Of a stretch of DNA of 64,000 nucleotides, positions 14,961 to 32,042 are shown piece after piece (position 1 is the stretch's first letter; every line of letters begins with the position of its first letter). This stretch comes from Dendrophyllia cribrosa (Eukaryota > Cnidaria > Anthozoa > Scleractinia > Dendrophylliidae), in assembly GCA_024195265.1 (NCBI GenBank), contig JAJLRJ010000004.1, positions 4,023,659 through 4,087,658 of the forward strand, given 5' to 3'. A program made the translations under genes and the position numbers. The notes under the pieces are model-generated. The model worked only from the letters and a program-made list of their open reading frames with translations, searched no databases and was not told the origin of the DNA.

Positions 14961-14966
14961 CACAAG
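14961..14966 (+). repeat. 6-bp target duplication, left (CACAAG)
   Basis: CACAAG lies directly outside the left end of the Polinton and is repeated at 32037-32042. Polintons characteristically make 6-bp duplications. Confidence 0.95.
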
Positions 14967-15255: not shown

Positions 15256-15279
15256 TCTCAACGACCAAGCGGGGCATCA

Positions 15280-15315
15280 CCAATTGAAGAAATTAAAAAC
15301 CCTTATATATACGCA
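15280..15315 (+). promoter_or_regulatory. early-type promoter of PolB
   Basis: CCAATTGAAGAAA (15280-15292), 11 bases, TATATATAC (15304-15312), 3 bases, then ATG at 15316. The arrangement repeats upstream of the exonuclease and the 150-residue zinc-binding gene and fixes the PolB start. Confidence 0.7.
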
Positions 15316-18300
15316 ATGCCACAACCCCGGCGAAGACGGCGTGATGACGATCAACGCGAGCTGATTGCCTGGCTGGACGAACAGGCACGAAATCTCGGAT
15401 TTTCAACAATTTATTCAACTCTATGATCGGGTTGATCAATGGGTTGAACAAGGCAGACGAACATTCCGGTTTCGCTTTGTAAACAATCTCGAAAATTCTC
15501 TTGTCGCCAGAATTTTGAACAAAATCAAGCAACATGTTCACACACGCCACACAATCAACTTACGCTTCACATTCGAGTTACGAAGCACTGAAACCGAGGA
15601 GTTGAGAATGTTTTATCAAAACAACCACAACAGTCGTTGGCTATCCACTCTTTCCGAGACACGACAGTGGCTGCAAGCTCAGGAAGAGCTTCGTCTTCAA
15701 AACGCAAGACTCAACAGACCTGACACCAAATGGGTTTACGAGCGCACTGCCCTGCTTGATGTCAAAGTCGTGTTGGATCGGCAACCCTTGCAAATAGGGC
15801 TCGGGCGGCTTCCTGATTGGATTCGCAACAAAAGAGAAGTCATTGCTCTTGACACTTTCAACGACAATCTTTGTCTCTTTCGTTGCTTGGCTGTCCATCG
15901 AGGAGCTCGTAGAGATTTCAACACTCGCAGATCCAGAGAACTTGCGGAAAGCTTCTTCGCAGTTTATCCGGGGCTTCGAGGCCAGCTAAATTTGCAGCAC
16001 TTCTCCAAAATCGAAAGGCATTTCAAGCAAGGAATTGCCGCATATCTTGTTCACCGCAATGGTGACTTCACTTTATCTCACACTCCTGTGAATTACGACA
16101 AGGTGGGCACTCCAACCATGACTGTCGGTATTCATGAGGGCCACTCCTTCTTGATCACCAATATCAATAAAGTCACAAACAATTACACTTGTGGCGAGTG
16201 TGGCGGGAGGTTCACACGGGCTGATAACTTGAAGCGCCACTCCAAGACGTGTACTCGTGGCCAAACCAAAATCGACTGCCCTGGGAAACGTATCCTCCCT
16301 CCGGAGTCAGCTTTTGAGAAAGCCTTTTACCCAGAAGGAGGTTTCGGTGTCAAGGGTGTGTGCTGGCTGGAGTGGGAGGCGAAACAGGCCGGTATTCACA
16401 TCCACCATCACAGATGCGGGCATGGCGGTGAGAGTTATATTTGTGGGGCCCCAGTCGATGGCTATCACCCAGAAAGCAAGACAGTTTTTCAGTTCCACGG
16501 CTGTCACTGGCACGGTTGTGTGGAATGTTACCCCGAGGGAACGAGGGACGAAGCAGTTCATGTTGACCGAAGGGGCAACACAATCACAAGGACGATTGCT
16601 TACCAAAAGACTCTGCAACGAACTCAGTTTCTTCAAGACGCCGGGTACACCGTGGTGGAACGGTGGGAGCATGAACGGCCTGCCCCCTGGTGGAATGATC
16701 GTTGCCCACAGAAAATAAACAAAACATATCCCCACGCGATCGTCTATGACTTCGAAGCGTACCAGGACAAGACCAAGGCAGCTCGTCCGACACACGATCT
16801 CTCTTATGAAAGCGAGCATGTGCCAATCTCAGTCTCCATTGCCGACACGTTGAATCCTGAGCCTGAGTACATTTGCTCCAAAGATCCTGACGAGCTTATC
16901 AGGCTGTTTTATGCCTCCCTGGAGCGGCGAAGCGCAGCCATCCGAGAAGACGTGGCTGTAAAATACATGCCTCCAGACCTTGAGAATCTTCCTGAGAAGC
17001 AACTCAAACTCATCGACAAATGGTGCAACCAAGTGCCTGTGGTCGGCTTCAACTCAGGCCATTACGATCTCAAGCTTATCCGCAAGTACTTTGTTACTCA
17101 TCTCGCTGGCGAGAACGAGGTCTTCGCCGCGGAGAAAGAGGGGCGCATCATGTTCATCAACACCCCCAGCTACAAGTTCTTGGACATCATGAATTATTTG
17201 GCCCCAGGCATCACGTACGACAAGTGGGTCAAGACGTATGGAGCGACACAGACCAAGTCCTGGCTTCCATACGAGTGGTTTGACAGCGCTGACAAGCTGG
17301 ATTACCCGGGGCTTCCTCCATACGAGCGCTGGTACTCACAACTCAAAAAGGCCTTCGTTATTTCTCCCGAGGAGCACAAAGAATGCAATCGCATCTTCCA
17401 CGAGAAAGGTATGAAGAAATTCGGAGACTGGCTTGAGCATTATAACAATCTCGACGTGGCTCCATTCCTCGAAGCTCTCCAAACGATGAAGGGGTTTTAC
17501 ACGGGTCTCGGAGTTGACATCTTCAAAGACGCGGTCTCCTTGCCAGGCGTATCAATGCAATACGTCTTGCGAGGCTCATTGAGAGGTCGCAATGCTCCAG
17601 CCCTATACGCCCCCGGACCAGAAGCTTACGCCATGCTGAAGGGGGCTGTGGTTGGCGGGCCAAGCCTAGTCTTCACCCGCAAACACGTAAGCGGCGAAAC
17701 CCGTATCCGTTCTCACAAATACGGCGACTTAGCGCGCATCACGAAACGGATTGTGGGGTTCGATGCTAACTCCCTTTACCCAAGCACGATGCTGCAGAAG
17801 ATGCCTTGTGGTAAAGAGAAGGTTGTGCATTACGATGCTCCGGAGCAGGCGGCGAGAGCTCTTGAAATGAATCTGAGGCTGCATACAGGCGGACGGTTCG
17901 GGTTTGCGGAAGTGGACATCGAAGTCCCCCAAGTGTTGTGGGAGCAGTTCGAAGAGTTTCCCCCGCTCTTCATCAACCAAGCAGTGCCTGACGAATTTGT
18001 TCCATAGCACATGCGCGATTACCTCCAAGAAAGTGGTCGAACCCGCTTTCCCGACCAGAAAAAGCTTCTGGGTGTGTTGTCAGCGAAAAAGATGCTGATC
18101 TACGCCCCCCTCTTGAAGTGGTATCTCAACATCGGGCTTAAGATCACGGCAGTCTATCGCACGATCGATTACATGCACCAAAAGCTCTTCGACTGGTTCG
18201 TTCGCGAGGTCGCCGACAACCGAAGGAAAGGCGACGCTGACAAGGATAAGGCCCTGCTTGCTGAAGTGTTCAAGCTCCTTGGCAACAGCGCTTACGGCAA

Positions 18301-19036
18301 GTTCATCGAAGCAGTGGAGCGCCAGACAAGAACGTTGTACACAATTGACGAGGATGAGGTCGACAAGCATCTCCGCTCACCCTTGTTCGATGACCTCGAA
18401 GAGATTGGAGCTGCTTACAAGATCGAGCTGCGCAAGCAAAAGGTCACAATCGACCGTCCCTTTCAAGTGGGCATTGTTGTGTATCAACTTGCCAAACTTC
18501 GCATGTTGGAGTTCTATTACGACTTCCTAGATTACTTCATCGACAGGCGCGACTTCGAGCTCATCCAGATGGACACGGACAGCATGTACTTCGCTCTTGC
18601 TCACGACACTCTGGAAGAGGCCGTTCGTCCTGAACTTCGCGCCCAGTTCGAGGCGGAGAAGAAGAATTGGTTGGCGTGGGACAAGTGGAGTGGCAGAGAG
18701 CCTGGTTTGTTCAAGCTTGAGAAGGAAGGCACACGGGCCATCGCCCTGTGCAGCAAGTGTTATTTCGTCGAAAACCAGGCTAGCGGTGAGGCCAAGATGT
18801 CCTCCAAGGGCGTCAACAAGAAGCAGAACGAGCTTCGCTGGGAAAGGTACGAAAGAGCCCTGCAAGGGGGCCGGGACATGGCCACCAACAGGGGCTTCCG
18901 AATGCACAACGGTGCCATGTTCACTTACGAGCAGCACAAGCTGGGCCTCTCTGCTTATTACGACAAGCGTTGGGTTCTGCCAGACGGCATCCACACAGAA
19001 CCAATCGAGTTTCACAACCCAGCTGGAGGCAACTGA
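15316..19036 (+). pseudogene. polB: protein-primed family B DNA polymerase (PolB), broken
   Basis: PolB replicates the linear Polinton genome from protein-primed ends. The start at 15316 follows a TATATATAC box. A frame change at about 15390-15410 separates the first 30 codons (basic RRRRR) from the main frame. An OTU-like block (NDNLCLFRCLAVH, GHSFLITN) and a C2H2 finger (about 16191-16253) precede a nuclease-like segment (VDGYHPESK, FHGCHWHGC). Exo I has DFE at 16748 and Exo II has FNSGHYD near 17050. Polymerase motif A is DANSLYPS at 17762, motif B GNSAYG near 18280, and motif C MDTDSMY at 18572. An in-frame TAG at 18005-18007 falls between motifs A and B and splits the palm. The 3' end overlaps the convergent integrase by 25 bp. 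Total length is about 1240 codons, normal for Polintons. Confidence 0.95.
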
Positions 19037-20001
19037 GTGCCCGGTGGCACAACCATCAGCTCTTCACGAACAAACCCTCTCTTAGGGCCATCGTAGAGAT
19101 AATACACGACAGGGGCATCTGGCCTTGTGACAACCTTCTCAATGTTGTAGACCTTCAAAGACCAGATCGGGTCAGTCGCACGCCTCCCGCCCCCTTCCAG
19201 TTCACCAGGCTGGTACAGATATCTCACACTCGCCCGTGGTGGGAGCTTTTTCTCCTTCTCCCCAACTGGCCTAGCATATGGTGTCGCAGGCTTGGCAGAA
19301 ACGGCTTTCTCTTTGATTGCTTGAGCGGGCTTCTTGCCAGTGAGTCTTGTTACTTCATTGTTCAAGGCCGAGACAACATCTGGCAGCCTTTTGACCCATG
19401 CAGTCGAACGGCCAGAGGGCATATTCATTTCAACGGCATACTGATAAACAAACAGTCTTTCAGCCAGGGTTCGGTTGAATCTCTCCACAATTGCTTGGTC
19501 TCTGTGGATATCAACCCGTCCGCGGCGAATGACCGTTTTGTTGTTTTCCATTATCTTAGTCACAGCCCCCATAAACTCTTTCCCAGGGTCAACTTGCAAG
19601 AGTTGAGGCCATTTCAAAGGCCCACGTCTGTAAATCTTTTGAAATGCCCTTGAGACTTCTTCAGACTCTTTCGAAGTCAGAGGCTCTGCTGCTTTGTATC
19701 GGCTAGCCACATCCACAAGGGTTAATGCGTATTTGTAAACCTTTCTCCCGCGTGGAAGTTTGTCGTGTGGCAGGAAGAGAAGATCTGCTTGATGCACTGC
19801 ATTGGGTCTAGAGACATCAAACTTGGGTCGAGGGATAGCGCGTGGCGCTGGGAGGTAAACTTGCCAAAGGGCTTGTTTGACCAGCCATTTCTTTGCGACA
19901 TCATCAGAGACCTTGGCCGCAGCAGCTAGCTTTTTCACAGCGGCAAGCCCTTTCCAATACCCTTTCGGGCTGTAATAGATCTTTGAGAGTTTCGCCTCCA
20001 T
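19012..20001 (-). CDS. int: retroviral-type DDE integrase
   Basis: This intact 329-residue protein inserts the element and makes the 6-bp duplication. The core has HQAD (D73), LLQVDPGKEF (D138) and DQAIVERFN (E173), with 34 residues between D138 and E173, close to the classic D,D-35-E. An N-terminal basic helical part precedes it. A C-terminal beta-rich segment ending GFVREELMVV resembles the chromo/SH3-like tail of Polinton integrases. The start at 20001 lies 13 bases from GTATATAC (20015-20022). The gene overlaps the end of PolB tail to tail. It has only the TATA-type box and no CCAATTGAAG box, like the virion genes. Confidence 0.95.
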   Translation of the reverse strand: MEAKLSKIYYSPKGYWKGLAAVKKLAAAAKVSDDVAKKWLVKQALWQVYLPAPRAIPRPKFDVSRPNAVHQADLLFLPHDKLPRGRKVYKYALTLVDVASRYKAAEPLTSKESEEVSRAFQKIYRRGPLKWPQLLQVDPGKEFMGAVTKIMENNKTVIRRGRVDIHRDQAIVERFNRTLAERLFVYQYAVEMNMPSGRSTAWVKRLPDVVSALNNEVTRLTGKKPAQAIKEKAVSAKPATPYARPVGEKEKKLPPRASVRYLYQPGELEGGGRRATDPIWSLKVYNIEKVVTRPDAPVVYYLYDGPKRGFVREELMVVPPGTQLPPAGL

Positions 20002-20043
20002 AGGGGTGCGCGTGGTATATACTTATGTATTGTGTTGTTTTGT

Positions 20044-20481
20044 TTACAGAAAGCGATAAGCCGCATACCCACCCGCAAGCAGGGTGCCTCCAATGAACGC
20101 AAGTTCGCCATTCTTCTGTTGTGTGCTGGGCTTGTAGAAGTCCGAGAAGACAGGCTCTTTGTTGTCTTTTATTTGTTTATCTGGTTGCGTTTGATGCATT
20201 TGGTTATGCAAGATTAGGGCTTGGTCAGTGGTTTGGAAGTTTTTGCTAGCTTGGTGTTCCTTCCGATCGTTGGCTGCAATCCAGTCGAGGAGCTTGGTGC
20301 GGTCCTTCTGATATTTGGCGTAAGCCGCTTGGTATTGTTCCAGGGCGTGGTCATGTCGGATTTTCTCATCCATTGCCGCCTTGCCGTTATCACCAGACAG
20401 ATATTTTGCGAGATAATTGCCGCCCGTGAAAGCGGCCGCATTGAGAACAGCGCCAAGGGCCATTATTGCAATCGAGGCCAT
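20044..20481 (-). CDS. conserved Polinton small protein with DFYKPS-QKNGEL motif
   Basis: 145 residues. An N-terminal hydrophobic stretch (MASIAIMALGAVLNAAAF) is followed by a charged helical region (HDHALEQYQAAYAKYQKDR, LLDWI), then FSDFYKPSTQQKNGELAFI and a C-terminal membrane-like segment. I recognise SDFY-PS-QKNGEL as a recurrent Polinton signature, but its function is unknown to me; a virion or membrane role is likely. The start at 20481 is 3 bases from GTATACATAT (20485-20494). A second ATG at 20463 is possible. Confidence 0.75.
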   Translation of the reverse strand: MASIAIMALGAVLNAAAFTGGNYLAKYLSGDNGKAAMDEKIRHDHALEQYQAAYAKYQKDRTKLLDWIAANDRKEHQASKNFQTTDQALILHNQMHQTQPDKQIKDNKEPVFSDFYKPSTQQKNGELAFIGGTLLAGGYAAYRFL

Positions 20482-20498
20482 TGTGTATACATATGGTT

Positions 20499-20720
20499 TT
20501 ACAATTTGTCTGGGTGGATTTTCTGGTCATCGAGATATTTCTTGAGTGCGAGGGTGCCGGCCATGACCGCGGTGAATTTGACGTAATTCATCAAGCTGGC
20601 ACTGGGGTCTGCGGTGAAGTTCTCTTTGATGGTCTTTTTACCAATCCACCCAAGCCCGGCGACAAGGCCGGTGATTGTTGCGGCGTCGAGGATGGCCTTC
20701 ACAAGTTTGTTGTCAGACAT
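20499..20720 (-). CDS. small conserved Polinton membrane protein
   Basis: 73 residues: a hydrophobic helix (ITGLVAGLGWIGKK), then KENFTADPS and MNYVKFTAVMAGTLALKKYL. The GLGWIGKK and NYVKFT pattern recurs in Polintons. Function is unknown. A GTATACATATGA box at 20733 lies 12 bases from the start. It sits in a tight head-to-tail minus-strand series where each gene has its own box. Confidence 0.7.
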   Translation of the reverse strand: MSDNKLVKAILDAATITGLVAGLGWIGKKTIKENFTADPSASLMNYVKFTAVMAGTLALKKYLDDQKIHPDKL

Positions 20721-20748
20721 GGTTTGTGCCCAGTATACATATGATTTT

Positions 20749-20967
20749 TTATTTTTCTGACTCGACCTCGACCTCGACCTCGACCTCGACCTCGACCTCG
20801 ACCTCGACCTCGACCTCGACCTCGGGCTCGGGCTCGGGCTCAGGCTCGTTGTGTCTGTCCCTTAACACGAGGTAAATTGTTTTTAAGGAGCACACGGTAT
20901 TTCCATACCAAAGAATAATCAGGCTTCCGATTACAACAGCATCCACCACATTCCGGAAAAAACCCAT
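20749..20967 (-). CDS. small membrane protein with acidic Glu-Pro/Glu-Val tail
   Basis: 72 residues. One membrane segment (VVDAVVIGSLIILWYG) is followed by a basic loop and a C-terminal tail of EP then EV dipeptides. The tail is written by a perfect hexanucleotide repeat GAGGTC (about ten units, 20763-20822 on the opposite strand), so its length is likely to vary between copies. The start is 6 bases from GTATATATATGA (20974). I do not recognise a function. Confidence 0.65.
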   Translation of the reverse strand: MGFFRNVVDAVVIGSLIILWYGNTVCSLKTIYLVLRDRHNEPEPEPEPEVEVEVEVEVEVEVEVEVEVESEK

Positions 20968-20993
20968 GGTGCAGTATATATATGATTTTTTTT

Positions 20994-21482
20994 TTATTCC
21001 ATATTTTTTATTCCTTGTCTTATTGGAATTCTAGATGGGGGTGTTGCTGGTGGTGTGGCTTCTGGTGTGGCTTCTGGTGTAGCTTCTGGTGTGGCTGGTG
21101 CTGGTGTGTTTGATTTGCGTCCAAGCCTTTGCATTATGGCTTCGCGCTGATAATAAACACCAGCAGCAGATACAACCAACCCTGCAACCCCCAGAATGTA
21201 AATGATTGAGTTGCTGTTGCTGTCACTTGGTGTGCCACTTGTTGCACCCCCCGTTGTGTCACTTGTTGCCCCACTTGTTGATGGTGCAGGCTTTTCTGCT
21301 TGCGCCTTTTTCTTTGCTTCTCGGGCCATGCGGTTGCGTTCTGCTAGCCTTTTGCCAGAAGCAACGCGGCCGGGGTTCTTTTCTGTTGCAGGCTTTGTTT
21401 TTGGAGCCTCAGAGGTAACCCGTGCAGGTGTTGGAGTTGGAGTTGGAGTTTCTTCAGGGATCGTCTCGAGTGGTGTGGCCAT
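20994..21482 (-). CDS. conserved Polinton protein, basic region plus membrane helix
   Basis: 162 residues from the ATG at 21482, chosen because GTATATATGTGA lies 3 bases upstream; the frame is open further to 21566. A Pro/Thr-rich start precedes KNPGRVASGKRLAERNRMAR, a basic motif common in Polintons. A Ser/Thr/Gly linker, a membrane helix (IIYILGVAGLVVSAAGVYY) and a second Pro-rich repeat (TPEA units) follow. It is probably a virion-associated DNA- or membrane-binding protein. That is an inference. Confidence 0.7.
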   Translation of the reverse strand: MATPLETIPEETPTPTPTPARVTSEAPKTKPATEKNPGRVASGKRLAERNRMAREAKKKAQAEKPAPSTSGATSDTTGGATSGTPSDSNSNSIIYILGVAGLVVSAAGVYYQREAIMQRLGRKSNTPAPATPEATPEATPEATPPATPPSRIPIRQGIKNME

Positions 21483-21562
21483 CCTGTATATATGTGATTT
21501 TTTATTTTTATCTTGTGACCATGTGTGGTGCCAGATTGCTGACAGGTTGCTGCCAGGTTTCT

Positions 21563-22171
21563 TCAAGGTTTCTGCGAGGTCGCCACAGGTCCCAACCCAA
21601 CTTCATCAAGTCCCTCAAGTGGATAGCCTTCACTGTCCCTGGTTGGATGTGTGGCTGGTGGTTCCAATTCTATCAAATCAGGCTCTCGTTCAAACTTGAT
21701 GTGTTTTGTTGTGATGAGAGCAGCATTGGCAATCGCCAGCCATCGTCCGCATCGCACGGCAATAGCCCCAGCAAGATTTGACAGCTCCTGGTTGATTATG
21801 TAGTCGTTCTTGAGTTCTTTCTGCAATTCCACCACATCATCAACCGGGACCACCATGCCAACGCCTTTGGATATTAGCATGATGCCAGAATCAACTAGGG
21901 ATTCGGTCGTCTTGTTGCCAACGTAGGCCTCGTACCGTTTGCAGTACTTGTCAACGTCCTTGTCTGACAACCGCTTGACATGCTCATGTGTCAGCTGCAC
22001 GCCGATGGCTTCTTTAGCCTTGCCAGTTGAAACAAGGATTGCCAGCTTCTCACGTTTGGCAGGAATGTCATTGTCACACACTAACCCTGTGGGAGGTGCG
22101 GCACCAGGGGTTGCCTCCAGCATCTGCATTACTTCGTCAAAAACGGCCTGGTCTTCAGCAGCTTCAGCCAT
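21563..22171 (-). CDS. conserved Polinton protein, unknown function
   Basis: 202 residues with an acidic start, then LTHEHVKRLSDKDVDKYCKR and YEAYVGNKTTESLVDS, then a hydrophobic stretch and LAIANAALITTKH. I recognise the pattern as shared among Polintons. No catalytic motif is visible. The box GTATACATATGTG (22178) is 6 bases from the start. Its position between small virion-type genes and the ATPase suggests a structural or assembly role. Confidence 0.7.
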   Translation of the reverse strand: MAEAAEDQAVFDEVMQMLEATPGAAPPTGLVCDNDIPAKREKLAILVSTGKAKEAIGVQLTHEHVKRLSDKDVDKYCKRYEAYVGNKTTESLVDSGIMLISKGVGMVVPVDDVVELQKELKNDYIINQELSNLAGAIAVRCGRWLAIANAALITTKHIKFEREPDLIELEPPATHPTRDSEGYPLEGLDEVGLGPVATSQKP

Positions 22172-22192
22172 CAGGGGGTATACATATGTGTT

Positions 22193-22432
22193 TTATTTTT
22201 CAATAATTCTCTTGATGTCTGGCAAAAGAGTTTCAATCTCTCTTACCACCCCCGCCATGGTGTCTGGCATAGAGGTCAACCGCAATGGATATCTGTTAAG
22301 AAGCATGAGACGCAGATCTTCCTCACCAGCGGCTTTGATAATTTTGTTTTGCGCCTCAAGTGTGTGTTTGTGCAATTCATCCAAAAGCTGTGAAAGCACA
22401 CACAGTTTGTGAAGACTGGTTGGCGCATTCAT
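22193..22432 (-). CDS. small helical Polinton protein
   Basis: 79 residues from the ATG at 22432, which lies 7 bases from GTATATATATG (22440); an alternative ATG at 22438 gives 81. The frame is open further upstream across the neighbouring ATPase tail, but the box position argues against that start. The sequence is helical and Leu-rich (VLSQLLDELHKHTLEAQ, ETLLPDIKRIIEK). I do not recognise it. Confidence 0.55.
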   Translation of the reverse strand: MNAPTSLHKLCVLSQLLDELHKHTLEAQNKIIKAAGEEDLRLMLLNRYPLRLTSMPDTMAGVVREIETLLPDIKRIIEK

Positions 22433-22484
22433 GGTCATGGTATATATATGAGCCGTATATTTGTGTGGCTGTGTGTGCCCGTGT

Positions 22485-23084
22485 TTAAATCTTGTACTCA
22501 ATTCCATACGGGCGCCTAAGAGAGAAAACCAGGTGGGAGAACTTGCGGGCTTTGAGCCTTGTGATAAACTCTTTGTACTCCTCGTGGGAGAGCTCGCCGG
22601 CATAATCTTCGAATATGGCTTTGGTTGTCTTGCTGGAGGGTGTGTAAAAGAGAACAATCGCTGCAATGTTGTCTCGATATGGCTTTGCAATGCTGGTGAT
22701 CTGCTGGGTCAAGACCCACACGGATATACCGTCATGCCTTGCGCTTAACCCCAGATTGACCAGCTGGCCCGTGCGGCCTTTGACATCTTTGGAGGCGGCG
22801 CAGTCATCGAGAATGAATAAAGTGTTGGTGCATGCGAAAAAGAAGCTCGCCAGCCTCAACCAGTCTTCGATCTCGTGCTGTTGGCAGACAATCACGAAGA
22901 TGTGTGGATCGCGGTCCACGAAGCCATCGTATGTCTTGTTCTTAACAAATGTGGGGCAGAATAAAACGATGTAATCAAAACAACCCCGGAAGGCCCCCAC
23001 CAGTTGGGAGAGGAGATACTGTGTCTTGCCAGAGTTAGTTGGGCCCACGATTAGTGCATTGAATGGCAGCTTTCTTGGGTCCAT
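22485..23084 (-). CDS. genome-packaging ATPase (FtsK/HerA, A32-like)
   Basis: 199 residues from the ATG at 23084. Walker A is GPTNSGKT (14-21), Walker B LFILDD (89-94), and the conserved sensor-like VWVLTQQ is at 123-129. The family pumps viral DNA into capsids. No plain ATG-proximal TATATAC box precedes it, only a weaker TATATTAG at 23094-23101. The frame is closed by a stop just upstream of the start. An overlapping frame (23035-23229) has the strong box, so either the two are separate genes or a one-base change has cut off an N-terminal extension. Confidence 0.9.
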   Translation of the reverse strand: MDPRKLPFNALIVGPTNSGKTQYLLSQLVGAFRGCFDYIVLFCPTFVKNKTYDGFVDRDPHIFVIVCQQHEIEDWLRLASFFFACTNTLFILDDCAASKDVKGRTGQLVNLGLSARHDGISVWVLTQQITSIAKPYRDNIAAIVLFYTPSSKTTKAIFEDYAGELSHEEYKEFITRLKARKFSHLVFSLRRPYGIEYKI

Positions 23085-23229
23085 AACCAACGCCTATATT
23101 AGTTGGTTTGCAAACTGGCGGGGAGGGGGCCTTTGCCAGAAGTCTTTGTATTTCATTGTGTGATAATGGTCTGGTGGATGGCAGGGGAGCCGGCTTGGCA
23201 TAGAAGTTGATCTTGTTTCTTGTGGCCAT
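23035..23229 (-). CDS. 64-residue ORF overlapping the ATPase start
   Basis: It begins MATRNKINFYAKPAPLP one base from GTATATAAATG (23231), the usual placement of a start in this element. It runs into the ATPase gene in another frame for 50 bases. It could be the original N-terminus of the ATPase, now shifted out of frame, or a small independent gene. The sequence alone does not decide. Confidence 0.5.
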   Translation of the reverse strand: MATRNKINFYAKPAPLPSTRPLSHNEIQRLLAKAPSPPVCKPTNIGVGYGPKKAAIQCTNRGPN

Positions 23230-23267
23230 GGTATATAAATGCGTGTGCGTTGTTCATGTGCGCGTGT

Positions 23268-24518
23268 TCAGTAAAATATTTCTGCCAACTGTCTGTCCAT
23301 TATGTTCATCTGCGCGTCTGAGATGGTGAAGATGTGGCAGAGGGCGTTCCCCGATCCAGAGCCGGCTCTTTCGATCTCTAGCTGCACGTCGTCGTGTGTG
23401 TTGGTGAGCCGCTGTCCACTCCCGTGCAGAGATGTGTCGGCCATGGACCGCAGGTCGATCCAGAGGCCAAACTTGTTGCCTGTGAGGTATTTGTTCAAGT
23501 CCATGTTAGGCCTGCCGTCTGTGTGCGGGTTGAAATGCCTGGTTAGCTCCCGCCACATGTCTGTGCCAGATATGCCTTCGTTATAAACACGGTTCGGCAC
23601 GCCGTTGACCGTGACTTTCACCCGTGTGATGTCGGGGTTGAAATAGGCCTCTGAGTCCCGGGCGCCAGCCGTGTAAGGGTTGATGAACAGCAACAGGATG
23701 CCCTTGAGCGACCGCCGCTGCGGGTTGATCGTAAGATTAATCCGAGTGTCGCCGCTCTTTGAGAAGGGGTGGACCCGATCTCGCATTACCAAGTCGTAAG
23801 CGAACTCCTTGCCGGTGGTGTAAGTGGTCATTGCTTCGTCAGCCAACACCTTGCTTCTGACGGTCTCGTACTCCAGCTGGATGTTTTCCAGTTTGTAAAC
23901 GAGCTTGCTTGTGTCAGAGCCCCGAACAACTTGGTTTGCTGGCGCGAGGGTCAGCTCGAAGACCAGATCGTTATATAGAGCTTGAGGGTACAGAGCCCCA
24001 TGGTCAGTCAAGATCTGGTGGTCGAGCTTGATGCGATACTTATTCTTGTAAATTGTCTCCAGCTTGTTCTCCGCATCCACCCCGGAGGTCTTTTTGTCGC
24101 CGGCGCCAGAGCGAATCCGGCACAAATCCACGGTCTGGATGCCGTCGAGCATCATGTTGTCCCGCTCTCCTGTGGTTTTGAAGAGATCTTCGAAGATCTT
24201 GTAGATGTCGTACCCCACCGTGTCCTGGAGAGTTGTGGCCGCAAACTTGACAACGAGCCTGTCGACCAGGGCCCGAGAAACGTTCTGCACGAGATAATTG
24301 TTTGCATGCCCACCGGTCAGGCTGATGTTGAATACCAGTGCGAGTGAGCCGGACAAGATGACATCGTGCTCGCCCAGCTTGGGGACAGAGACATAAAGGG
24401 GCTCCCCTGGGTTGGCGGCTGCCGGGTTGAACGTGATGCGCTTGACGGTCCTCTCTGCCTTCATTGCGCGCAATATCTTCTCGCTGTGTGTTGAGAGTTG
24501 GTTCGGCTGCACAGCCAT
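23268..24518 (-). CDS. double-jelly-roll major capsid protein
   Basis: Intact, 416 residues. I recognise the Polinton major capsid pattern: LVVKFAATTLQDTVGYDIYK, SGAGDKKTS, YRIKLDHQILTDHG, LVFELTLAP in the first half; RRSLKGILLLFINPYTAGAR, TVNGVPNRVY and FGLWIDLRS, HGSGQRL in the second. Two similar beta-rich halves form the trimeric hexon-like capsomer of this virus lineage. The start at 24518 is 2 bases from GTATATATTTG. It shares a 43-bp divergent promoter with the 485-residue gene. Confidence 0.9.
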   Translation of the reverse strand: MAVQPNQLSTHSEKILRAMKAERTVKRITFNPAAANPGEPLYVSVPKLGEHDVILSGSLALVFNISLTGGHANNYLVQNVSRALVDRLVVKFAATTLQDTVGYDIYKIFEDLFKTTGERDNMMLDGIQTVDLCRIRSGAGDKKTSGVDAENKLETIYKNKYRIKLDHQILTDHGALYPQALYNDLVFELTLAPANQVVRGSDTSKLVYKLENIQLEYETVRSKVLADEAMTTYTTGKEFAYDLVMRDRVHPFSKSGDTRINLTINPQRRSLKGILLLFINPYTAGARDSEAYFNPDITRVKVTVNGVPNRVYNEGISGTDMWRELTRHFNPHTDGRPNMDLNKYLTGNKFGLWIDLRSMADTSLHGSGQRLTNTHDDVQLEIERAGSGSGNALCHIFTISDAQMNIMDRQLAEIFY

Positions 24519-24561
24519 GGGTATATATTTGTGTTTTTAAAATTATATTTATATACCCACG
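24519..24561. promoter_or_regulatory. 43-bp bidirectional promoter, capsid / coiled-coil gene
   Basis: GGGTATATAT next to the capsid start is mirrored by ATATACCC next to the opposite start, with an AT-rich centre (TTTTTAAAATTATATTT). Each box lies 2-5 bases from its ATG, so leaders must be almost absent if the boxes act as TATA elements. Confidence 0.6.
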
Positions 24562-26019
24562 ATGGCTGAAGGTGGATATGATATACCTGGTGATAATGAG
24601 AATCCTTGGGTTGACTGGAACATAGACCACGATGATGACGACGACGAACAAGAAGTTGACACAACAACACCAATTCAACCAGACGATGCATCCACCCCAT
24701 ACCACGGCAGCGAAGAAAGGCAACCTTATCGACCAGGTGCTGACAAATCCACTCCATACCATGGCGGTGAACAGCATGAAATGCCTACAATGCCTACTGA
24801 GCACAGTGGTCTGCCAGGTGATCCTGGCACCGTCCCTCTGCTTGGAGACTTCTCAGACGCAACTGATAAAGCAGAGAGAATCGATAAAGCCATGGACTGG
24901 ATCAAAGGGAAGTTTCCAAAAGTAAACATCCCGAAATTACCCCCAATTGGTTTTGGTAAAAAACCAGCAAATTCTGGCAAAATAGTTTCCCTTGGGCCAA
25001 AGGGCGGCGAATCTCTTATTTTCAAGCAAGATGGGAGCTTTCTTAAATCGTTCACAGACAAGTTCAAAACAGCCCTTGGCCCAAGCGCTGAAGAGCTTGT
25101 CTATGAAGAAAATGCATCAATAAGGGAAGAAAGGCAAAGATTGAAGGAGACAGAAAAACAACTGAAGGAGGATGAAAGGGCTGCTGTGAAAAAACAACAA
25201 GCAGCAAATGAGGTGCAAAACCTCAGAAACAGAATTGAGCAAACTCAAACGAGGAGGGGGACTCTGGAGCAGGAACACGGTTCAGTCGTTGAAAATCAAG
25301 CCGAGATAGACCGCCTAAAACTGCTGGAAAAAAATCTTCAACGAGATCTTGAAAACCAGAAAAAAGAATTAGCGGCCCTGCAAAAAATACAAAAACGAAC
25401 AGACAAAGAACGCGCCCAAGTACAGGCAAAGGTTGACAAAGCCAGAACACGCCTTTCTGCTATGGTGAAGGAAAGAAATGAAGTTGAAGCAGGGCTAAAC
25501 TCAACTAAACCCCTTGATGAGTTAAACGAAAGAGAAGCCGAGCTTGAACGACAGAACGCTGAAGACAGGCGCGTCATAGAGGATGAGAACACGTCTCCCT
25601 CTGACAGAGCAGCCGCGGAAGACCGGGTTGCCGAGCGAGAAGAAGAGCTGGAAAGGCTCCGGCCACAGGTTCAAGAAAGGGAAAACGCCCTGTCTTTGAG
25701 AGAGAGGGTCAGAGAAATCTTCAAGAAATACGGGTGGACCCTGCAAGCGATTGTTCTGGCAGCTGGCATCACCATCAGCGCTGTTGTACTCGCCACCTTG
25801 AACGGCCTGGCAAAGGCCACCAAGGCTATTGGCAATGGGCTTAAAGAGCTTGGCAAAAAGGCAGCCATCGCCCTGCCTGGCCTCATTGGCACAATTGTGA
25901 GCTTCATCTTCAAAACAGCTGGGTCGGTAATCTCCTTTCTGGGCGAACACGCCTGGCTGCTCATCCTTGCCGTGGTGGCCTTCCTTGTTGAAAGGATCAC
26001 CAAGCGTTCGAAGTCTTGA
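24562..26019 (+). CDS. coiled-coil protein with C-terminal membrane helices
   Basis: 485 residues. An acidic start (DDDDDE) and a repeat of STPYHG precede a domain to about residue 180. A long charged coiled coil (about 185-385) follows. The last 95 residues hold KKYGWTLQAIVLAAGITISA, then GTIVSFIFKTAGSVISFLGEH and AWLLILAVVAFLVERI. I recognise this hydrophobic C-terminus as highly conserved in invertebrate Polintons. A role in the virion membrane or entry is plausible but unproven. TATATAC at 24550-24556 lies 5 bases from the start. It converges on the large protein gene to its right. Confidence 0.8.
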   Translation: MAEGGYDIPGDNENPWVDWNIDHDDDDDEQEVDTTTPIQPDDASTPYHGSEERQPYRPGADKSTPYHGGEQHEMPTMPTEHSGLPGDPGTVPLLGDFSDATDKAERIDKAMDWIKGKFPKVNIPKLPPIGFGKKPANSGKIVSLGPKGGESLIFKQDGSFLKSFTDKFKTALGPSAEELVYEENASIREERQRLKETEKQLKEDERAAVKKQQAANEVQNLRNRIEQTQTRRGTLEQEHGSVVENQAEIDRLKLLEKNLQRDLENQKKELAALQKIQKRTDKERAQVQAKVDKARTRLSAMVKERNEVEAGLNSTKPLDELNEREAELERQNAEDRRVIEDENTSPSDRAAAEDRVAEREEELERLRPQVQERENALSLRERVREIFKKYGWTLQAIVLAAGITISAVVLATLNGLAKATKAIGNGLKELGKKAAIALPGLIGTIVSFIFKTAGSVISFLGEHAWLLILAVVAFLVERITKRSKS

Positions 26020-26092
26020 ACACTGTTTTGTTCGCTAAAATTTGGAGCACTCAGTGGAGCGGAAAAATTGCCAGGCCACCATTGATTTTCGG

Positions 26093-27913
26093 CTACCTCA
26101 ACCAAACGAAAAGCCCTGCCAAAGCAACCGCGCCAACAGCAACGACTGCCTTGGAGACGTGATGCGGGTCGGGCTGTGGCTCGGGTGCGGGGGTTGGTGC
26201 TGGTTGTGGTGCGGGTGTGGGAGCTGGTTGTGGTGTGGTCCTTGGTTTGGACGCAATGCCCTGTGCTTGTGTGGCCTGTGTATGTATCGGGTTTGATGGG
26301 TGGCTGTTTGGTGGATTAATCTTTGTTGGTCCACCGTCCATGGGGCGAAGGGAGGCTTTTTTCGTGTCAAGATTAACACCACTGTTCACGCCCAGCTTCA
26401 TCCCTTGCGTTGCCTCCTGCAGATTGTTGTTATACCCGATCACGCTCTCTGTGTTGATAATCATGCGCGAGGGCATGAGCCAGCTTCCGGGCGCTGTCGC
26501 AAAGTCCAGGCGAACTTTCGTTGCTTGGATGGCAAGCTGGTATCGCTGTACGCTTGTTGAGATGTCGTTCAGGATTATGGCCTCCTCTAGATGGGTGAGG
26601 AATACTCTCTGCGTTTCGAAAGCCCAGCCTCCTCTTCCAATGATGCTGCTGCGGGTTTTGGCCTGTGAACCAAGAATGCAGTACACAAAGGCCTCGATTG
26701 ATTGGTTCATACGCGCGAGCCCTGGTTGTGTTAGCCCCTGTGCGTAATTTGGCACAAAGTGCTCGAACTGGGTGTCCGCCCCTTGATCGTTACGAACGTA
26801 AGTTATTCCATTGGCTTTAAAGTTGGGGTCTTTTCTGTCAGTGACGCGCTCATCATCGAACAGAGCTAGATCAGAGTCTGGATAAGTGTAATCGGTAGAG
26901 ATGGGGCCCTCTCCATAAGCCCAAATGTAGACATTCCCTAGACCGTGGTTCTTGCCGTATGTATAACGGAAGTCAGAACTGGGGTCGATACCGAACTCGA
27001 TGCAAAGCTTCTTGTACGCGTCGATGTTGTATTTGTTGTCTTTCTGGTTAAATGGAGGGTCGTCTGGCAAAGCACTCACGCTTTGTTCCCCACCCATCTG
27101 GTAGAGTATTCGCCTTGTTGTGAAATAAACGTGAAACCGGTAAAACGACCGTAGCTGTGTGGTTAGAGATAGACTGGAGTTCTTATCGAATAGAATGTCA
27201 CGCGAGATTCCACAGCCAGTTGTTGCACACCACAGGGCGAAGGAGAGTTGTTGCGGCCAAAAACTCATATGAGGGCCACCCATCCACTTTCGGCCGTATT
27301 TGGCGGTTGTTAAGGATATCTGCGTGTCCCTGAATATATTTCTGTATTTAGTTGTGAAATACTCAGTTGGAGTGACGTAAATCCTTTGCTCTTTGTCATT
27401 CAAGATTGCGCCAATCATCATGTCTTTGTCTATTGTTGTGTCGAAAGCAATGGCCGGGATTGATGACATTTTTTGACCCAGCGATAACTGATAAGGGAAA
27501 CCGCCGTCATAATGAAGGCCAAGAGCATCTCTTTCAGCGCCAGTCCAATCTTTGTGGGGCATTTCTGTGATTAGCCCCCACGAGCCAGGGGCCTTTTTGT
27601 AAAGCACTTCTCCTGTGGCTGTTTTGTGGTCGGCACCATACTCTACTTGCACTTCAAAATGGGACATATCGGCGCGAGGGAAACGCTTTTTGAAGTCTGA
27701 GAGCGCCTTGGCCTTGGCCGCGGCCTAGAGCTTGGCAGCCTCCGGCGAATTCAACCAAGCAATTTCAGGATCAGGGGGTGGTGGCTTATATGGAGGATGG
27801 CTATTGACGTTTAGGTTTGAATTAAAAGGGGGTGGGGGCCCGTAATTGTGGCCACCGATGGAGATGCCAAGATTTGAATTAGGATTAAATCCACCAGGCC
27901 GTCTGCCAAACAT
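26093..27913 (-). pseudogene. large conserved Polinton protein (about 606 residues), broken by TAG
   Basis: The start at 27913 is 4 bases from GTATATAATTA (27918). The first 62 codons are Gly/Asn/Pro-rich (PPYKPPPPDPE). A TAG at 27725-27727 interrupts, and the same frame continues to 26093. The main part has MSFWPQQLSFALWCATTGCG, a pattern I recognise from other invertebrate Polintons, and a Pro/Gln/Ala repeat before a C-terminal membrane anchor (VVAVGAVALAGLFVW). It is probably a virion component. The exact role is unknown to me. Confidence 0.8.
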
Positions 27914-27958
27914 GATTGTATATAATTATAATTATAAAATGTTATTATATACACCATC
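27914..27958. promoter_or_regulatory. 45-bp bidirectional promoter, large protein / small capsid gene
   Basis: GATTGTATATAATTATAA on one side and GTTATTATATACACCATC on the other place a TATATA box 4 and 6 bases from the two start codons. It repeats the design of the 24519-24561 spacer. Confidence 0.6.
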
Positions 27959-28641
27959 ATGGTTGTGTTAACAATCGTCACACATTCGAACCCTCACACG
28001 ATCTATTTTGACCACCCACTGCCGAAACCGAGTTATATCCGTCTTGTTTCTTGCTCAATTTTCAACTCGTGGAATACTTTGAAGCAAAGAGGAGAGATAA
28101 CATTGTTCAAAAATAAAAATGGGAGTAATACAGGAACTGTCAGAAGACTTCTCCCAGGCCATTACACCATTGGGTCTTTAGCAAAAGAATTAGAAAACGT
28201 ATTCGGTGGTCCCAATGTTAATTATAAATTATCAACTGAGACAAACACGCCACTGGGGTCGATGATCATTTTCAAAGGATACCCAGAAGAAGTGAAACTA
28301 GACCATGATCTATCTGTATTGCTTGGTATAAGCCCTAAATTAATATTTCCAACAACTTTCGTCAAGCGTTTAAGGGCACCAAGCACTTACTTCATCCACT
28401 GTGATCTGGTTGATAAAGAACTGAACTTACTCAATGGTAAGCCTTCGACAGTTTTGGCGCGCTTCGACATTCGTGGAAAGCCCTTTGAGAAGGTGTTTTA
28501 CGAGACAACACAACAGAACGTCTTGCGCGACGTCTCGTCTGTGATTATGTTAACTCTATCACGCTGACAGTGAGGGATGAGAACAATGCCCTCTTCAACT
28601 TCAATGACGCGCCCTTAGAATTTGAAGTTGAGTTAAATTAA
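27959..28641 (+). pseudogene. small jelly-roll-like (penton/minor) capsid protein, frameshifted
   Basis: The first frame ends at 28567. A shift of one base at about 28540 leads into a frame that ends at 28641 and carries the expected C-terminal strand (FNFNDAPLEFEVELN). Conserved residues include YFIHCDLVDKE and STVLARFDIRGKPFEKVFYE. I recognise the family from invertebrate Polintons and place it as the minor capsid (vertex) candidate by size and beta content. TATATAC at 27946-27952 lies 6 bases from the start. Confidence 0.75.
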
Positions 28642-28665
28642 AAAATCATATATATACCCCACGCA

Positions 28666-29349
28666 ATGAGTTCTGCCAATGTGCTTCCATCGGCCCCCGA
28701 ATACAGCGAGACACAACAGCTATACCCCATGCGTGAGATCGCTCAAGTTAATGCAGAAGACTTCAGGCTCAAAAAGATATCTGACTTGCTGAAGGAGTTG
28801 TCTGACGAAGCCGAGCATTACAGACAAGTCGCAAAGAAATACAAACGAACCCAATCATTGGTTCATTACTCGGCGGTTGGACTTCGGTCGCTTTCTGTTG
28901 GGCTTTCATCAGGAGCCCTTGCCACTGCATTGACTGGATTCGGAATTGTTGCAAGTCCAGCACTTGCGGGCATCGCAACCATCTGTGGACTGTCCTCTGT
29001 TGGCTTCGCAGCTGCTAACAAGCGATTGGAGCGAAAAGTGGCCAAACACGAGAATATCAACACACTGGCCCTGGCTAAACGCAACTCTGTCTATGAACTG
29101 GTCTCAAAGGCTCTGGAAGACAAGAGGATCAGTGATGCAGAATTCACCATAATTACTCGTGAGGTGGAAAAATATCACGAACTCAAAGCTGCAATCAGGG
29201 ATGGTGTTAAGGCTAAAAAAAATGTTGGCACTCAAACACAAGCGCCAGACCTCGAGAAACTCAAAAAGGAACTTCGCAAGGAAGTCAAAGAAGAGTTGCA
29301 AAAAAAGATACTTCTCGCCGCATCCTCCAAATCCGATTTGAGAGATTAA
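28666..29349 (+). CDS. conserved Polinton protein with Gly/Ala-rich hydrophobic core
   Basis: 227 residues, intact. A helical start leads to EHYRQVAKKYKRTQSLVHYS, then a Gly/Ala/Ser-rich double hydrophobic segment (about 70-120: SVGLSSGALATALTGFGIVA), then KHENINTLALAKRNSV and a charged C-terminal coiled coil. The pattern is common in invertebrate Polintons. A membrane-active or virion role is inferred. CATATATATAC (28648-28657), preceded by AAAAAAT, lies 8 bases from the ATG. Confidence 0.7.
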   Translation: MSSANVLPSAPEYSETQQLYPMREIAQVNAEDFRLKKISDLLKELSDEAEHYRQVAKKYKRTQSLVHYSAVGLRSLSVGLSSGALATALTGFGIVASPALAGIATICGLSSVGFAAANKRLERKVAKHENINTLALAKRNSVYELVSKALEDKRISDAEFTIITREVEKYHELKAAIRDGVKAKKNVGTQTQAPDLEKLKKELRKEVKEELQKKILLAASSKSDLRD

Positions 29350-29394
29350 ACTCTGGCTTTAATCTCTACATTTCTAAAGAAAAATCATTTGCAC

Positions 29395-29428
29395 CCAATT
29401 GAATACACAACTAGGCTGTTTACAAACC
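29395..29428 (+). promoter_or_regulatory. early-type promoter candidate of the VLTF3-like gene
   Basis: CCAATTGAATACA (29395-29407), 10 bases, GTTTACA (29418-29424), then ATG at 29429. The first nine bases and the spacing match the PolB promoter; the TATA part is degenerate. Confidence 0.45.
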
Positions 29429-30118
29429 ATGGAGAAGTTCGCCGAACAACTGGCTGATGTTCGGGCCTTGGACACTAAAGGCGAATACACAACCAAACTC
29501 TATGAGCTGGAGAAAGAATACAAATTCATCCTCCTGCGCTCACTCGAAAGCTACACCAAGGAAATACTGCGTTCAAACCTGTCAGAACGCCTTCATATCA
29601 TCAAGGAGTGTCTTTCTCCCGGGGCACAATACCCTCCACACTTACCTTTCACCCTTCGGAATGAAAGGCTAGAAGCTTGCCAAAACTGCAAAGGCAAATT
29701 AAACCTCAGGATGTTTTCATCAGAACTTTGCTGTGAGGGCTGCGGTCTCTTAGAACCCTTGGATGGTGTGACCTTCGATTACAACGGGCTCTATGGTGGT
29801 GATTACACAATTACCAAAAAAAGAATGACCACCAAACATTACAACTTCAAAAGCTATCTCAACAAACATCTGAAAATTTGTGAACGCCACGTCTGCTTGT
29901 CCAATGATCAAATACAACATGCAAATGATTCTTTCAAATCCATCGAAGAATATCTCCCAAAAAGAATCTCCATGCCCTTTGTGGCCCAGAAAATCTTGAT
30001 TGCGATAAATGGGCCACAACGGCTTGTCAATTACTTCTGGCTGCAAGTTCCAGAAAAATCAATGTGGAAGCACAAAGAAAGCTGGAGGCTCACGTTTGAA
30101 AAGATGAGGGGCGTTTAG
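29429..30118 (+). CDS. VLTF3-like zinc-ribbon late transcription factor
   Basis: 229 residues from the first ATG. A zinc ribbon is formed by CQNC (84-87) and CCEGCG (101-106). It is followed by a region (YTITKKRMTTKHYNFKSYL) resembling the YxRxxHF part of poxvirus/NCLDV late factor 3, which Polinton-like viruses also carry. It would direct expression of the virion genes. It overlaps the convergent 150-residue gene by 4 bases. The identification rests on the ribbon, the size and the downstream block. Confidence 0.65.
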   Translation: MEKFAEQLADVRALDTKGEYTTKLYELEKEYKFILLRSLESYTKEILRSNLSERLHIIKECLSPGAQYPPHLPFTLRNERLEACQNCKGKLNLRMFSSELCCEGCGLLEPLDGVTFDYNGLYGGDYTITKKRMTTKHYNFKSYLNKHLKICERHVCLSNDQIQHANDSFKSIEEYLPKRISMPFVAQKILIAINGPQRLVNYFWLQVPEKSMWKHKESWRLTFEKMRGV

Positions 30119-30567
30119 CTTGCAAGCCCATAAAAACTTTCGTGAGCACTTGGCCCGTCATCGTCTTCCTCGGCATCGCTGCCATTGCTCGTGTTCTGCA
30201 ATTCCAGCTGTAAGCATCTAGAAAATGACAAGCCAGGGCAAATAGCTCTGTGTATGCCCATGTCCTCTTCTGGCGATAAGTATTCTTGGCATTCATCACA
30301 TGTTTGTGAGGTGAATATAGGGAAACAACAATCGTACCGCCAGTGATAATGATTTTTTATCGCACGGCAAACAGATTTCATCCTGTGTTGATGAAGGGCC
30401 CTGGCAGCCAAGTCACGCTGGATACTCCTTTCAACCAGTTCAAGGATGTAATCCTTGATCATGTCTGGTAAGTAGTCCCAATGGGATTGACCAAAAGACA
30501 GCAACCATTTGCCGAAGTAGTCTTGATTCTTTGGATTGAAGTCAAGTCCTTGTGCCGTCATTGCCAT
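30115..30567 (-). CDS. zinc-binding ORF downstream of the exonuclease
   Basis: 150 residues. A helical half (GKWLLSFGQSHWDYLPDMI) is followed by DCCFPIFTSQTCDECQEYL and HRAICPG, giving C-C, C-x2-C and H-x3-C pairs that could bind zinc. The end is acidic (DAEEDDDG). It overlaps the last 10 bases of the exonuclease frame and has its own CCAATTGGAGAAA plus GTATAC element, so it belongs with the early-type genes. I do not recognise the family. Confidence 0.6.
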   Translation of the reverse strand: MAMTAQGLDFNPKNQDYFGKWLLSFGQSHWDYLPDMIKDYILELVERSIQRDLAARALHQHRMKSVCRAIKNHYHWRYDCCFPIFTSQTCDECQEYLSPEEDMGIHRAICPGLSFSRCLQLELQNTSNGSDAEEDDDGPSAHESFYGLAS

Positions 30568-31691
30568 GTTGGTTTGGTATACGGGTGATGGTATTTCTCC
30601 AATTGGCTCAACTTTGAGAGTAAGAAGGCTTCCGCAACTGCACTGTCATCAGCTAAATTGTTTGGAACAGTTTTGACGGGGGTGGTTTGTTTTTGTTTTG
30701 ACAAATTTTCATGGAAGCTGTTGACAGATTCCATAATGCTATCCAAGAAGTTTGGTTGTTTTGTTTCCCAAATTTCTGTTATGTCCAGCAGCTTCCATGC
30801 GAAGAAGGCTACTGCCTTGTAATAGTTTGGGAGCCAATCATCTTCACTGAATGTAGTTCTGCCTATGATTTTCAAAAAACTTAAATCGCCAAATTTCTGG
30901 TCCTCATCATATGTCATACGAAACCATTTTCCGCTACACAAGATATCTCCCGATGAAATTCCTCTCATAATTTTTTCGAACATTGCTGCTGATTTTGTTG
31001 CGCCAAGGTTAAGTAGTTTTGTTTGGCCTGGAAATAGTTTTTGTTTGCAAGATAGAATGTAAATACCACAGGCGAGTGCTGATGGGTTTTTTGTTCTGTG
31101 TACAACCCCCTTGTTTAGCAAAGAATTGTGTTCAAGGCTAAGGCCAAGCTGCTTCAAAGAACACATTCTGAAATAGGCATCGACAAACAAACCTTTGTTA
31201 ACTCTCTCACCGCTGAGAGCAAGACCGGTTTGTATTTAGTCACGGTATTGTTTAGGAATTTTATTGGCTGTCATCTTTCTGGTATAAGGACACTTGAACT
31301 CTAACAAGACAATCGTCTTGTCTTTGTGTGAGAAGTATCCGTCTGGACTGCAAGTGACCTTCCCAAAGAGAGTGTGATCCTTTGCAAGATTTAGAGAGCC
31401 CTTAAATCCAACAACTTTGACAGAATGTTTCTTCTCAAAGTATTCACGGACTAGAGGCTCAAATAATGTGCCCCAAACGCAGGCCACATTGTTGCTCATA
31501 TTGATTGGCTTTACTTTTTTGCGAATTAGGCTCGACTGGCTCTCAAATGGCGAAGATCCTGTCAAGGCAGAGATCTCCGATGCACCGAGTGTGGTTTGTC
31601 TGGCTTTGACCCATTCTTCGCTCTTTTGGATCAGGCCTGTTTCACGCGATTTCAGGAATCTCTTGAAAGCTTTCACGTTTGCCATTGCCAT
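30558..31691 (-). pseudogene. YqaJ-type viral exonuclease/recombinase, broken by TAA
   Basis: The family resects DNA ends for recombination and replication. From the ATG at 31691 the protein has GASEISALTGSSPF, VWGTLFEPL (E79), CSPDGYF (D117) and LLEFKCP (E131, K133), the D...ExK nuclease core. A TAA at 31236-31238 stops it after 151 residues. The same frame continues for 225 codons to 30558 with the expected downstream block (KGLFVDAYFRMCSL). The start is fixed by GTATATATAC (31699-31708). An open extension reaches 31760 in the TIR. Confidence 0.85.
30568..30606 (-). promoter_or_regulatory. early-type promoter of the 150-residue gene
   Basis: On the minus strand CCAATTGGAGAAA (30606-30594) is followed after 11 bases by GTATAC (30582-30577) and after 9 more by ATG. 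It lies inside the exonuclease coding sequence, one base different from the PolB box and with the same spacing. Confidence 0.6.
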
Positions 31692-31731
31692 GTTGGGGGT
31701 ATATATACAGTGTTTACGTTTCTTCAATTGG
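31692..31731 (-). promoter_or_regulatory. early-type promoter of the exonuclease
   Basis: On the minus strand CCAATTGAAGAAA (31731-31719), 10 bases, GTATATATAC (31708-31699), 7 bases, ATG (31691). It mirrors the PolB promoter at the other end of the element. Confidence 0.7.
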
Positions 31732-31748
31732 CTATACCAGGCCGGTGT

Positions 31749-32036: not shown

Positions 32037-32042
32037 CACAAG
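32037..32042 (+). repeat. 6-bp target duplication, right (CACAAG)
   Basis: Exact copy of 14961-14966. Confidence 0.95.

Follow-up and report, generated by a model that had tools for sequence, protein, structure and literature searches.

We analysed a window of 64,000 nucleotides from Dendrophyllia cribrosa (contig JAJLRJ010000004.1, positions 4,023,659 to 4,087,658; coordinates below count from the first base of this stretch) that contains one Polinton, a decayed copy of about 17 kb (14967-32036). A kinship of Polintons with large DNA viruses and virophages has been proposed. We found that a box of 13 bases, CCAATTGRAGAAA, precedes one class of genes, namely those for the type B DNA polymerase (PolB), a YqaJ-type exonuclease, a Cys/His-rich protein (the zinc gene) and a VLTF3-like protein. 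The restriction to this class, the spacing, the orientation that follows each gene, the conservation over diverged gene types and a core shared with the boxless genes give good support to the box as a putative class-specific promoter element of a Polinton lineage. It probably serves as the upstream element that controls an early-gene promoter, in which a second motif, TATATAC, is predicted to mark the transcription start. From this arrangement we infer early timing, a role for TATATAC as initiator and transcription by a polymerase other than that of the host. A promoter code that can be read from the sequence would allow early and late gene sets to be predicted for each copy and would give a clue to the polymerase.

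The window holds five exact copies of the box, every one within the Polinton. Ahead of PolB, CCAATTGAAGAAA lies at 15280-15292 on the plus strand and is followed by the core TATATATAC (15304-15312, plus strand), which begins 11 nt past the box and ends 3 nt ahead of the ATG at 15316. The exonuclease has the same box at 31719-31731 on the minus strand, with the same core at 31707-31699, and the zinc gene has CCAATTGGAGAAA at 30594-30606 (minus strand) with the core TATAC at 30581-30577. The other two exact copies are CCAATTGAAGAAA in the terminal inverted repeats (TIRs): the left one (15215-15227, plus strand) has a core TATATG that overlaps an ATG at 15244, and the right one (31777-31789, minus strand) is a copy of it. 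The VLTF3-like gene is preceded by a variant with two mismatches, CCAATTGAATACA (29395-29407, plus strand), which faces the right end and is kept in relatives. An earlier note on this DNA had placed the box before PolB, the exonuclease and the zinc gene, in weaker form before the VLTF3-like gene and as a unit in both TIRs, and all of these sites exist.

From the end of the box to the TATA-like core there are 11 nt for PolB and the exonuclease, 12 for the zinc gene, 11 for VLTF3 (with TTTAC as core) and 13 in the TIR unit. The earlier note had given this gap as exactly 10-11 bases; a narrow gap does recur, but that range is too tight, as relatives have 11-13. Likewise, the ATG follows 3-9 bases past the end of the core, as had been noted, in the gene units but not in the TIR unit, where the two overlap. 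In the window, no box was found before the capsid-position, ATPase and integrase genes or the small genes listed. When up to three mismatches are allowed, the window contains 62 matches compared to 61.6 expected. The loose matches are at chance level, and it is therefore the exact sites that hold the signal.

The genome searched comprises 627 Mb in 22 contigs, and our comparisons cover relatives inside this one genome. The exact box occurs 2334 times, compared to 71 times for the reversed pattern (about 0.007 copies are expected per 64 kb). Box and TATATA separated by 9-13 bases occur 1391 times, compared to 0 for the reversed pattern, a count that includes some double counting at sites with TATATATA. 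Among the first 100 boxes listed on one contig (C1), 59 have TATATA at 9-13 bases, 79 have an inward-facing partner at a distance of 10-25 kb and 10 have an outward-facing one, as would be the case if elements of 15-20 kb had an inward promoter close to either end. The figures for box-to-core spacing rest on fetched loci. The Polinton load of this genome is very high: a first look gave 1534 candidates for the minor-capsid-position gene, and those 100 that were scored match at 85-100% identity.

One set of related elements was chosen by the box itself and consists of 19 half-elements taken from box sites on C1; it is hence biased for boxes at the ends, and gene starts were anchored by homology. 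In this set, the box precedes PolB in 3/3 copies without mismatch, the exonuclease in 9/10 with 0-1 mismatches and the zinc gene in 4/5 with 0-1 mismatches, the fifth copy (L028) having one mismatch once re-anchored. For VLTF3, nine of the 11 copies have the box at two mismatches, a tenth at three and L036 at one once re-anchored. Nine other gene families, including the capsid-position, ATPase and integrase genes, have no box at up to two mismatches in 88 copies (3/88 at three mismatches); for ATPase and major capsid, 21 of these 88 rows, the start was placed by a margin measured in the window, so that the exact promoter may be uncovered in some. Counted by family, the box is present in 4/4 early families and 0/9 others. 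These data and those from the window uphold the claim that capsid-position, ATPase and small genes are boxless. The proposed agreement between gene function and promoter class stands in so far as the box sets PolB, the exonuclease, the zinc gene and VLTF3 apart, but a split into replication and virion genes is too simple, as the integrase is boxless.

A second set was assembled without box information by ranking elements by the similarity of their minor-capsid-position gene. Stretches were fetched at the expected distances of the ends, for ten elements on the exonuclease side and ten on the PolB side, with nine elements shared. All 19 covered early-gene starts have the box at up to two mismatches. 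On the exonuclease side this applies to 9/9 starts (exonuclease 5, zinc gene 3, VLTF3 1), and on the PolB side to 10/10, here at up to one mismatch and including a copy without its ATG (L060). The sought genes are absent from the stretches of L052 and L054, that of L056 stops short of the start, and those of L048 and L051 do not include the start of the exonuclease. TATA is found 11-13 nt past the box in 18/19 starts and CATAC in the nineteenth; L066 has a second TATA at 0 nt from the box besides the one at 11-13 nt. Among 50 listed units, the ATG lies 16-33 nt past the box in 49, the exception being an overlapping tandem box (L004). The earlier note had named a lack of enrichment or spacing in related elements as the outcome that would speak against it; in these relatives, box and spacing recur before the same genes.

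For an estimate of conservation, we aligned 11 gene types on the box, five of PolB and two each of the exonuclease, the zinc gene and VLTF3. Pairwise identity is 0.88 in the box, 0.25-0.36 in the preceding 30 bases and 0.45-0.52 in the following 20 bases, and 8 of the 13 box columns, AATTG included, are invariant. The proteins are diverged, with 32-50% identity in the N-terminal part among the PolB types compared and 32-35% between the two VLTF3 types. Promoters are almost the same in one PolB type and one exonuclease type, and flanks are similar between the two zinc types, so that the 11 types are not wholly independent. Furthermore, in a motif-blind count of 6-mers, CCAATT and CAATTG rank first, with 4/4 early families and 0/8 others; PolB and the major-capsid gene are represented in this count by the window copy alone.

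We next consider the core. Of 73 late-type genes, 71 have a TATA-type core (TATAYM or GTATAY) no more than 30 nt from the start, compared to 4.6 in shuffles. In these genes it ends 0-12 nt ahead of the start, and in boxless promoters TATATAC is often preceded by an A-rich stretch. The core is common to both classes, and the early mark is therefore the box alone; TATATAC as an early mark was rejected on the same ground. Some genes are tightly packed, with the next core at most 25 nt past the previous stop. In codons 2-24 after the start ATG of ten families (pairs at most 25% different), the differences by codon position are 524/332/1178. This third-position excess supports translation from that ATG, which would put the transcription start upstream of it.

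The alternative that survives best is an ordinary promoter of the host RNA polymerase II (Pol II), with the box as the site of a host factor (CCAAT/NF-Y, or an E-box CAATTG), TATATAC as a TATA box and transcription by the nuclear host machinery alone. The box does start with CCAAT and contains CANNTG, the elements reside in nuclear chromosomes, and a scan of 17 protein pieces detected no RNA polymerase family. A fixed gap of 11-13 nt would, however, be unusual for a CCAAT box, which is mostly found at a greater distance upstream and can face either way. In addition, a Pol II TATA box directs the start to 25-30 nt downstream, which would fall inside the coding sequence of the late-type genes. 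As the core lies 0-12 nt before the start and the coding signal follows right after, a Pol II TATA box does not fit, and the canonical layout of such a promoter appears to be absent. Gene ends give a divided picture: AATAAA is over expectation past the minor-capsid-position gene (6/12 compared to 2.1), but over all 108 gene copies it is not enriched within 160 nt of the stop (10/108 compared to 13.7 in shuffles). We thus regard a host promoter as unlikely. The poxvirus early terminator TTTTTNT was also examined and rejected as not used: it follows 4/4 zinc, 2/8 major-capsid, 1/11 VLTF3 and 1/9 exonuclease ends and none elsewhere, and past the zinc genes it falls on the opposite strand of the VLTF3 coding sequence.

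It is very improbable that the box serves the TIRs in replication or end recognition instead of acting as a promoter. The unit is present in both TIRs, and the inward pairing of the C1 boxes would suit such a role, but the zinc box lies 1.4 kb inside, the VLTF3 box is internal and, like its gene, faces the right end while the zinc and exonuclease boxes face the other way, and the ATG keeps its distance from the box in 49/50 units. The box as a TIR structure was rejected, since the VLTF3 and zinc-gene boxes are internal and orientation follows the gene. A conserved N-terminal peptide, or a coding segment copied between genes, is hardly credible either, for although eight tandem units with separate ATGs have the upstream ATG in frame, so that the second box is read as peptide, its frames differ at the two ends in the window (PIEE for PolB compared to QLKK for the exonuclease), which led us to reject this candidate, and in 40/50 units no ATG in frame lies within 300 nt upstream.

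If the box is an early promoter element, a factor available when expression begins would bind it and recruit a polymerase to the initiator of VLTF3 and of the genes for replication. Transcription would start at or just ahead of TATATAC, resulting in leaders of roughly 0-20 bases. The VLTF3-like protein might then help to switch on the remaining, boxless TATATAC genes. The TIRs repeat the inward-facing early unit at each end, by which both terminal genes would come under the same control.

The VLTF3-like gene (29429-30118, plus strand) carries a tentative label, based on weak Pox_VLTF3 and weak fold matches. Its family has 319 relatives in public proteins. Among seven close members, three match Pox_VLTF3 weakly (best E 0.014) and six match DUF2535. 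In a wider set of 39 relatives, DUF5637 was found in 18 (best E 1.9e-4) and a TFIIB zinc ribbon in six, and no Pox_VLTF3 match was found at E 0.1. A fold search with a model of pLDDT 68 (predicted local distance difference test) gave nothing at E 0.001; its top weak matches are an exonuclease (0.012) and then a VLTF3-like protein (0.025), and viral VLTF3 proteins recur. A search of PDB with the protein gave one match, at E 0.4. The evidence is only suggestive of a VLTF3 relative. The conserved variant box of this gene would suit an intermediate promoter class.

Several observations weigh against reading the box as an early promoter element, among them the RNA polymerase result and the AATAAA excess past one gene given above. 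Timing and start sites are predictions from the sequence. Since the copies have a common ancestry and a promoter can travel with a TIR, the rows compared are not independent. Queries of IMG/VR with the ATPase, VLTF3 and integrase returned no relatives, a pattern scan of IMG/VR gave 7 stretches, and the comparison is one within the same genome. The integrase is found among the boxless genes, and the VLTF3 box is a variant and not exact. A decayed exonuclease start (L032) has a match with three mismatches at best, L054 has a box with two mismatches without a recognised gene, and L057 has an extra box with one mismatch without an assigned gene. The TATA-type core was found in 18/25 early-type starts (1.6 in shuffles), and 5/11 VLTF3 copies are without it by the pattern used. 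The third-position excess is absent from one family (p485; 23/14/21 in 7 pairs) and weak in VLTF3. The two leading C's of the box are missing from the viral motifs compared. PF04441 (VETF D6/A7 early factor) had 0 matches in the genome, with controls likewise silent, so that this result is uninformative. Overall, the observation made in the earlier note is confirmed and its interpretation is partly supported, with the virus-encoded early/late switch suggested there as a putative part.

The early units also occur in tandem, 58-78 nt apart. Such tandems were observed at both ends of the element in the window (15215-15316 and 31789-31691) and in L001, L017, L042, L059, L065 and L067. In these eight, both ATGs share one frame and no stop interrupts the sequence between them, so that two N-terminal forms of PolB or the exonuclease are possible. 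A ninth pair (L004) has a single ATG, and the tandem pairs have about three independent origins. At the edge of the right TIR (31749-31760), the PolB-start-like ATGGCACAACCC meets the upstream region of the exonuclease at GCACAACCC, which is present without ATG in two other elements (L010 and L013); the junction looks like a swap of TIR and promoter at short homology. The N-terminus of the zinc gene, LDFNPKNQDYFGKWL (30567-30500), resembles that of one PolB type, RLDFNPRNHDYFGNWL (L001, L059), as if promoter and first codons had been exchanged between genes.

The Polinton is flanked by a target site duplication of 6 bp, CACAAG, read directly at 14961-14966 and 32037-32042. Inverted-repeat analysis gave the left TIR (14967-15255, plus strand), which has the early promoter unit at its inner edge and whose arms (14966-15041 and 15038-15255) are 100% complementary to the right end, and the right TIR (31749-32036, minus strand). 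Inside each TIR there is a further inverted repeat of 56-58 bp, 95% complementary with a loop of 11-14 bp (14986-15112 and 31892-32017). PolB (15316-19036, plus strand, from the map of open reading frames) is broken, as its frame shifts near 15.4 kb and is interrupted by a TAG at 18005; the profile scan found DNA_pol_B_2 in both pieces, over the cut-off in one and just under it in the other. The exonuclease (30558-31691, minus strand; YqaJ E 4.8e-16) has an in-frame TAA at 31238-31236. Open copies of both genes are present elsewhere in the genome. The zinc gene (30115-30567, minus strand; 150 residues) takes its label from the earlier note and has no known family, and no homologues were found at E 0.001 in the protein database.

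The boxless genes include the integrase (19012-20001, minus strand), whose rve match in the profile scan (E 5.8e-7) is slightly under the curated cut-off and whose upstream region contains the late-type core GTATATAC. The packaging ATPase (22485-23090, minus strand) is Pox_A32-like (E 6e-14); its start is unsettled, as TATATACC-ATG at about 23229 is out of frame with the open reading frame in the window copy. The two capsid-position genes are labelled from position and size and are boxless, the minor one (23268-24518, minus strand) with TATATAC at 24527-24521 and the major one (26093-27913, minus strand) with a TATATAC core and an in-frame TAG at 27727. Profile scans gave no capsid family match for these genes; the major one is right in size and place for a double jelly-roll major capsid protein, and the minor one had no match in the Pfam scan and one weak PHROG of unknown function. 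The element has hallmarks of Polintons/Mavericks, namely a type B DNA polymerase, an rve integrase, TIRs with a 6-bp duplication and a Pox_A32-type ATPase. Outside the Polinton there is a 109-bp inverted repeat, 98% complementary with a 4-bp loop (38763-38984), and at 34997-35374 a 9-bp tandem array overlaps an open frame (35037-35369).

Lastly, we compared the promoters to those of known systems. In the open-access literature accessible to us we found mavirus-like motifs only and no promoter code for Polintons of this type, and a term search of the available text of a vertebrate Maverick paper (PMC8097293) and of papers on Polinton-like viruses (PMC12220804, PMC10120064) gave no comparable motif. 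Mavirus and the endogenous mavirus-like elements (EMALEs) have the promoter motif TCTA, common to the late genes of Cafeteria roenbergensis virus (CroV) (PMC8547959, available text). They are similar in that a Polinton relative has its promoter motif in common with a large DNA virus. However, TCTA is a late-type motif of the helper, whereas the Polinton box is early-type and belongs to a scheme of two classes, with no helper virus identified.

The early box of Mimivirus and CroV, AAAATTGA, has AATTGA in common with the Polinton box (PMC5294985). In Mimivirus it lies up to 150 nt from the start codon; a fixed initiator spacing is not described in the part of that source available to us, and DNA replication genes are counted there as late and boxless, whereas the Polinton box marks PolB. 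Poxviruses have an early core, AAAANTGAAAA, that spans -13 to -25, and TAAAT as late initiator (PMC5294985, same part). They resemble the Polinton in a TGAA-type core, in a similar gap size and in a late initiator overlapping the start site, and AANTGAA is common to AAAANTGAAAA and the Polinton box. The box differs in that it starts with CC and mostly has G at one A position; the leading A-run is replaced by CCAA, and TAAAT by TATATAC.

In general, the early layout of nucleocytoplasmic large DNA viruses, a core about 10-12 nt from a TA-rich initiator-like core, appears to be present here, at 11-13 nt in 18/19 starts. African swine fever virus (ASFV) has an early promoter motif (EPM) 9-10 bp upstream of the start at 36/36 early genes, the initiators TA(+1)NA (early) and TA(+1)TA (late), and median leaders of 14 and 9 nt, respectively (PMC7163114, as far as its available text goes). 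In ASFV, and by prediction in the Polinton, an upstream motif about 10 bp from a TA-rich initiator marks the early genes and late starts lie at TATA. The ASFV leaders of about 10 nt are as predicted for the Polinton, whose starts come from the sequence only. The EPM, however, is an AT-rich motif of 19 nt, whereas the Polinton box has 13 nt with CC at its start, and ASFV has an RNA polymerase, a capping enzyme and a poly(A) polymerase of its own (PMC7163114), whereas in the 17-kb Polinton no RNA polymerase was seen among the pieces scanned. The link to the early boxes of large viruses is stronger than the earlier note had held, as spacing and initiator layout match in addition to part of the core (PMC7163114, PMC5294985, available text). 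A far-reaching version, which we consider rather doubtful, is that Polintons of this lineage use the complete two-class promoter grammar of cytoplasmic large DNA viruses and, in place of host Pol II on canonical promoters, a polymerase of the poxvirus/asfarvirus type supplied in trans, as virophage-like satellites of an unseen virus, with early units brought to both ends by the TIRs. Should the match to ASFV and poxviruses stem from common machinery, chromosomal Polintons would be linked either to a helper virus or to a promoter system that was inherited.

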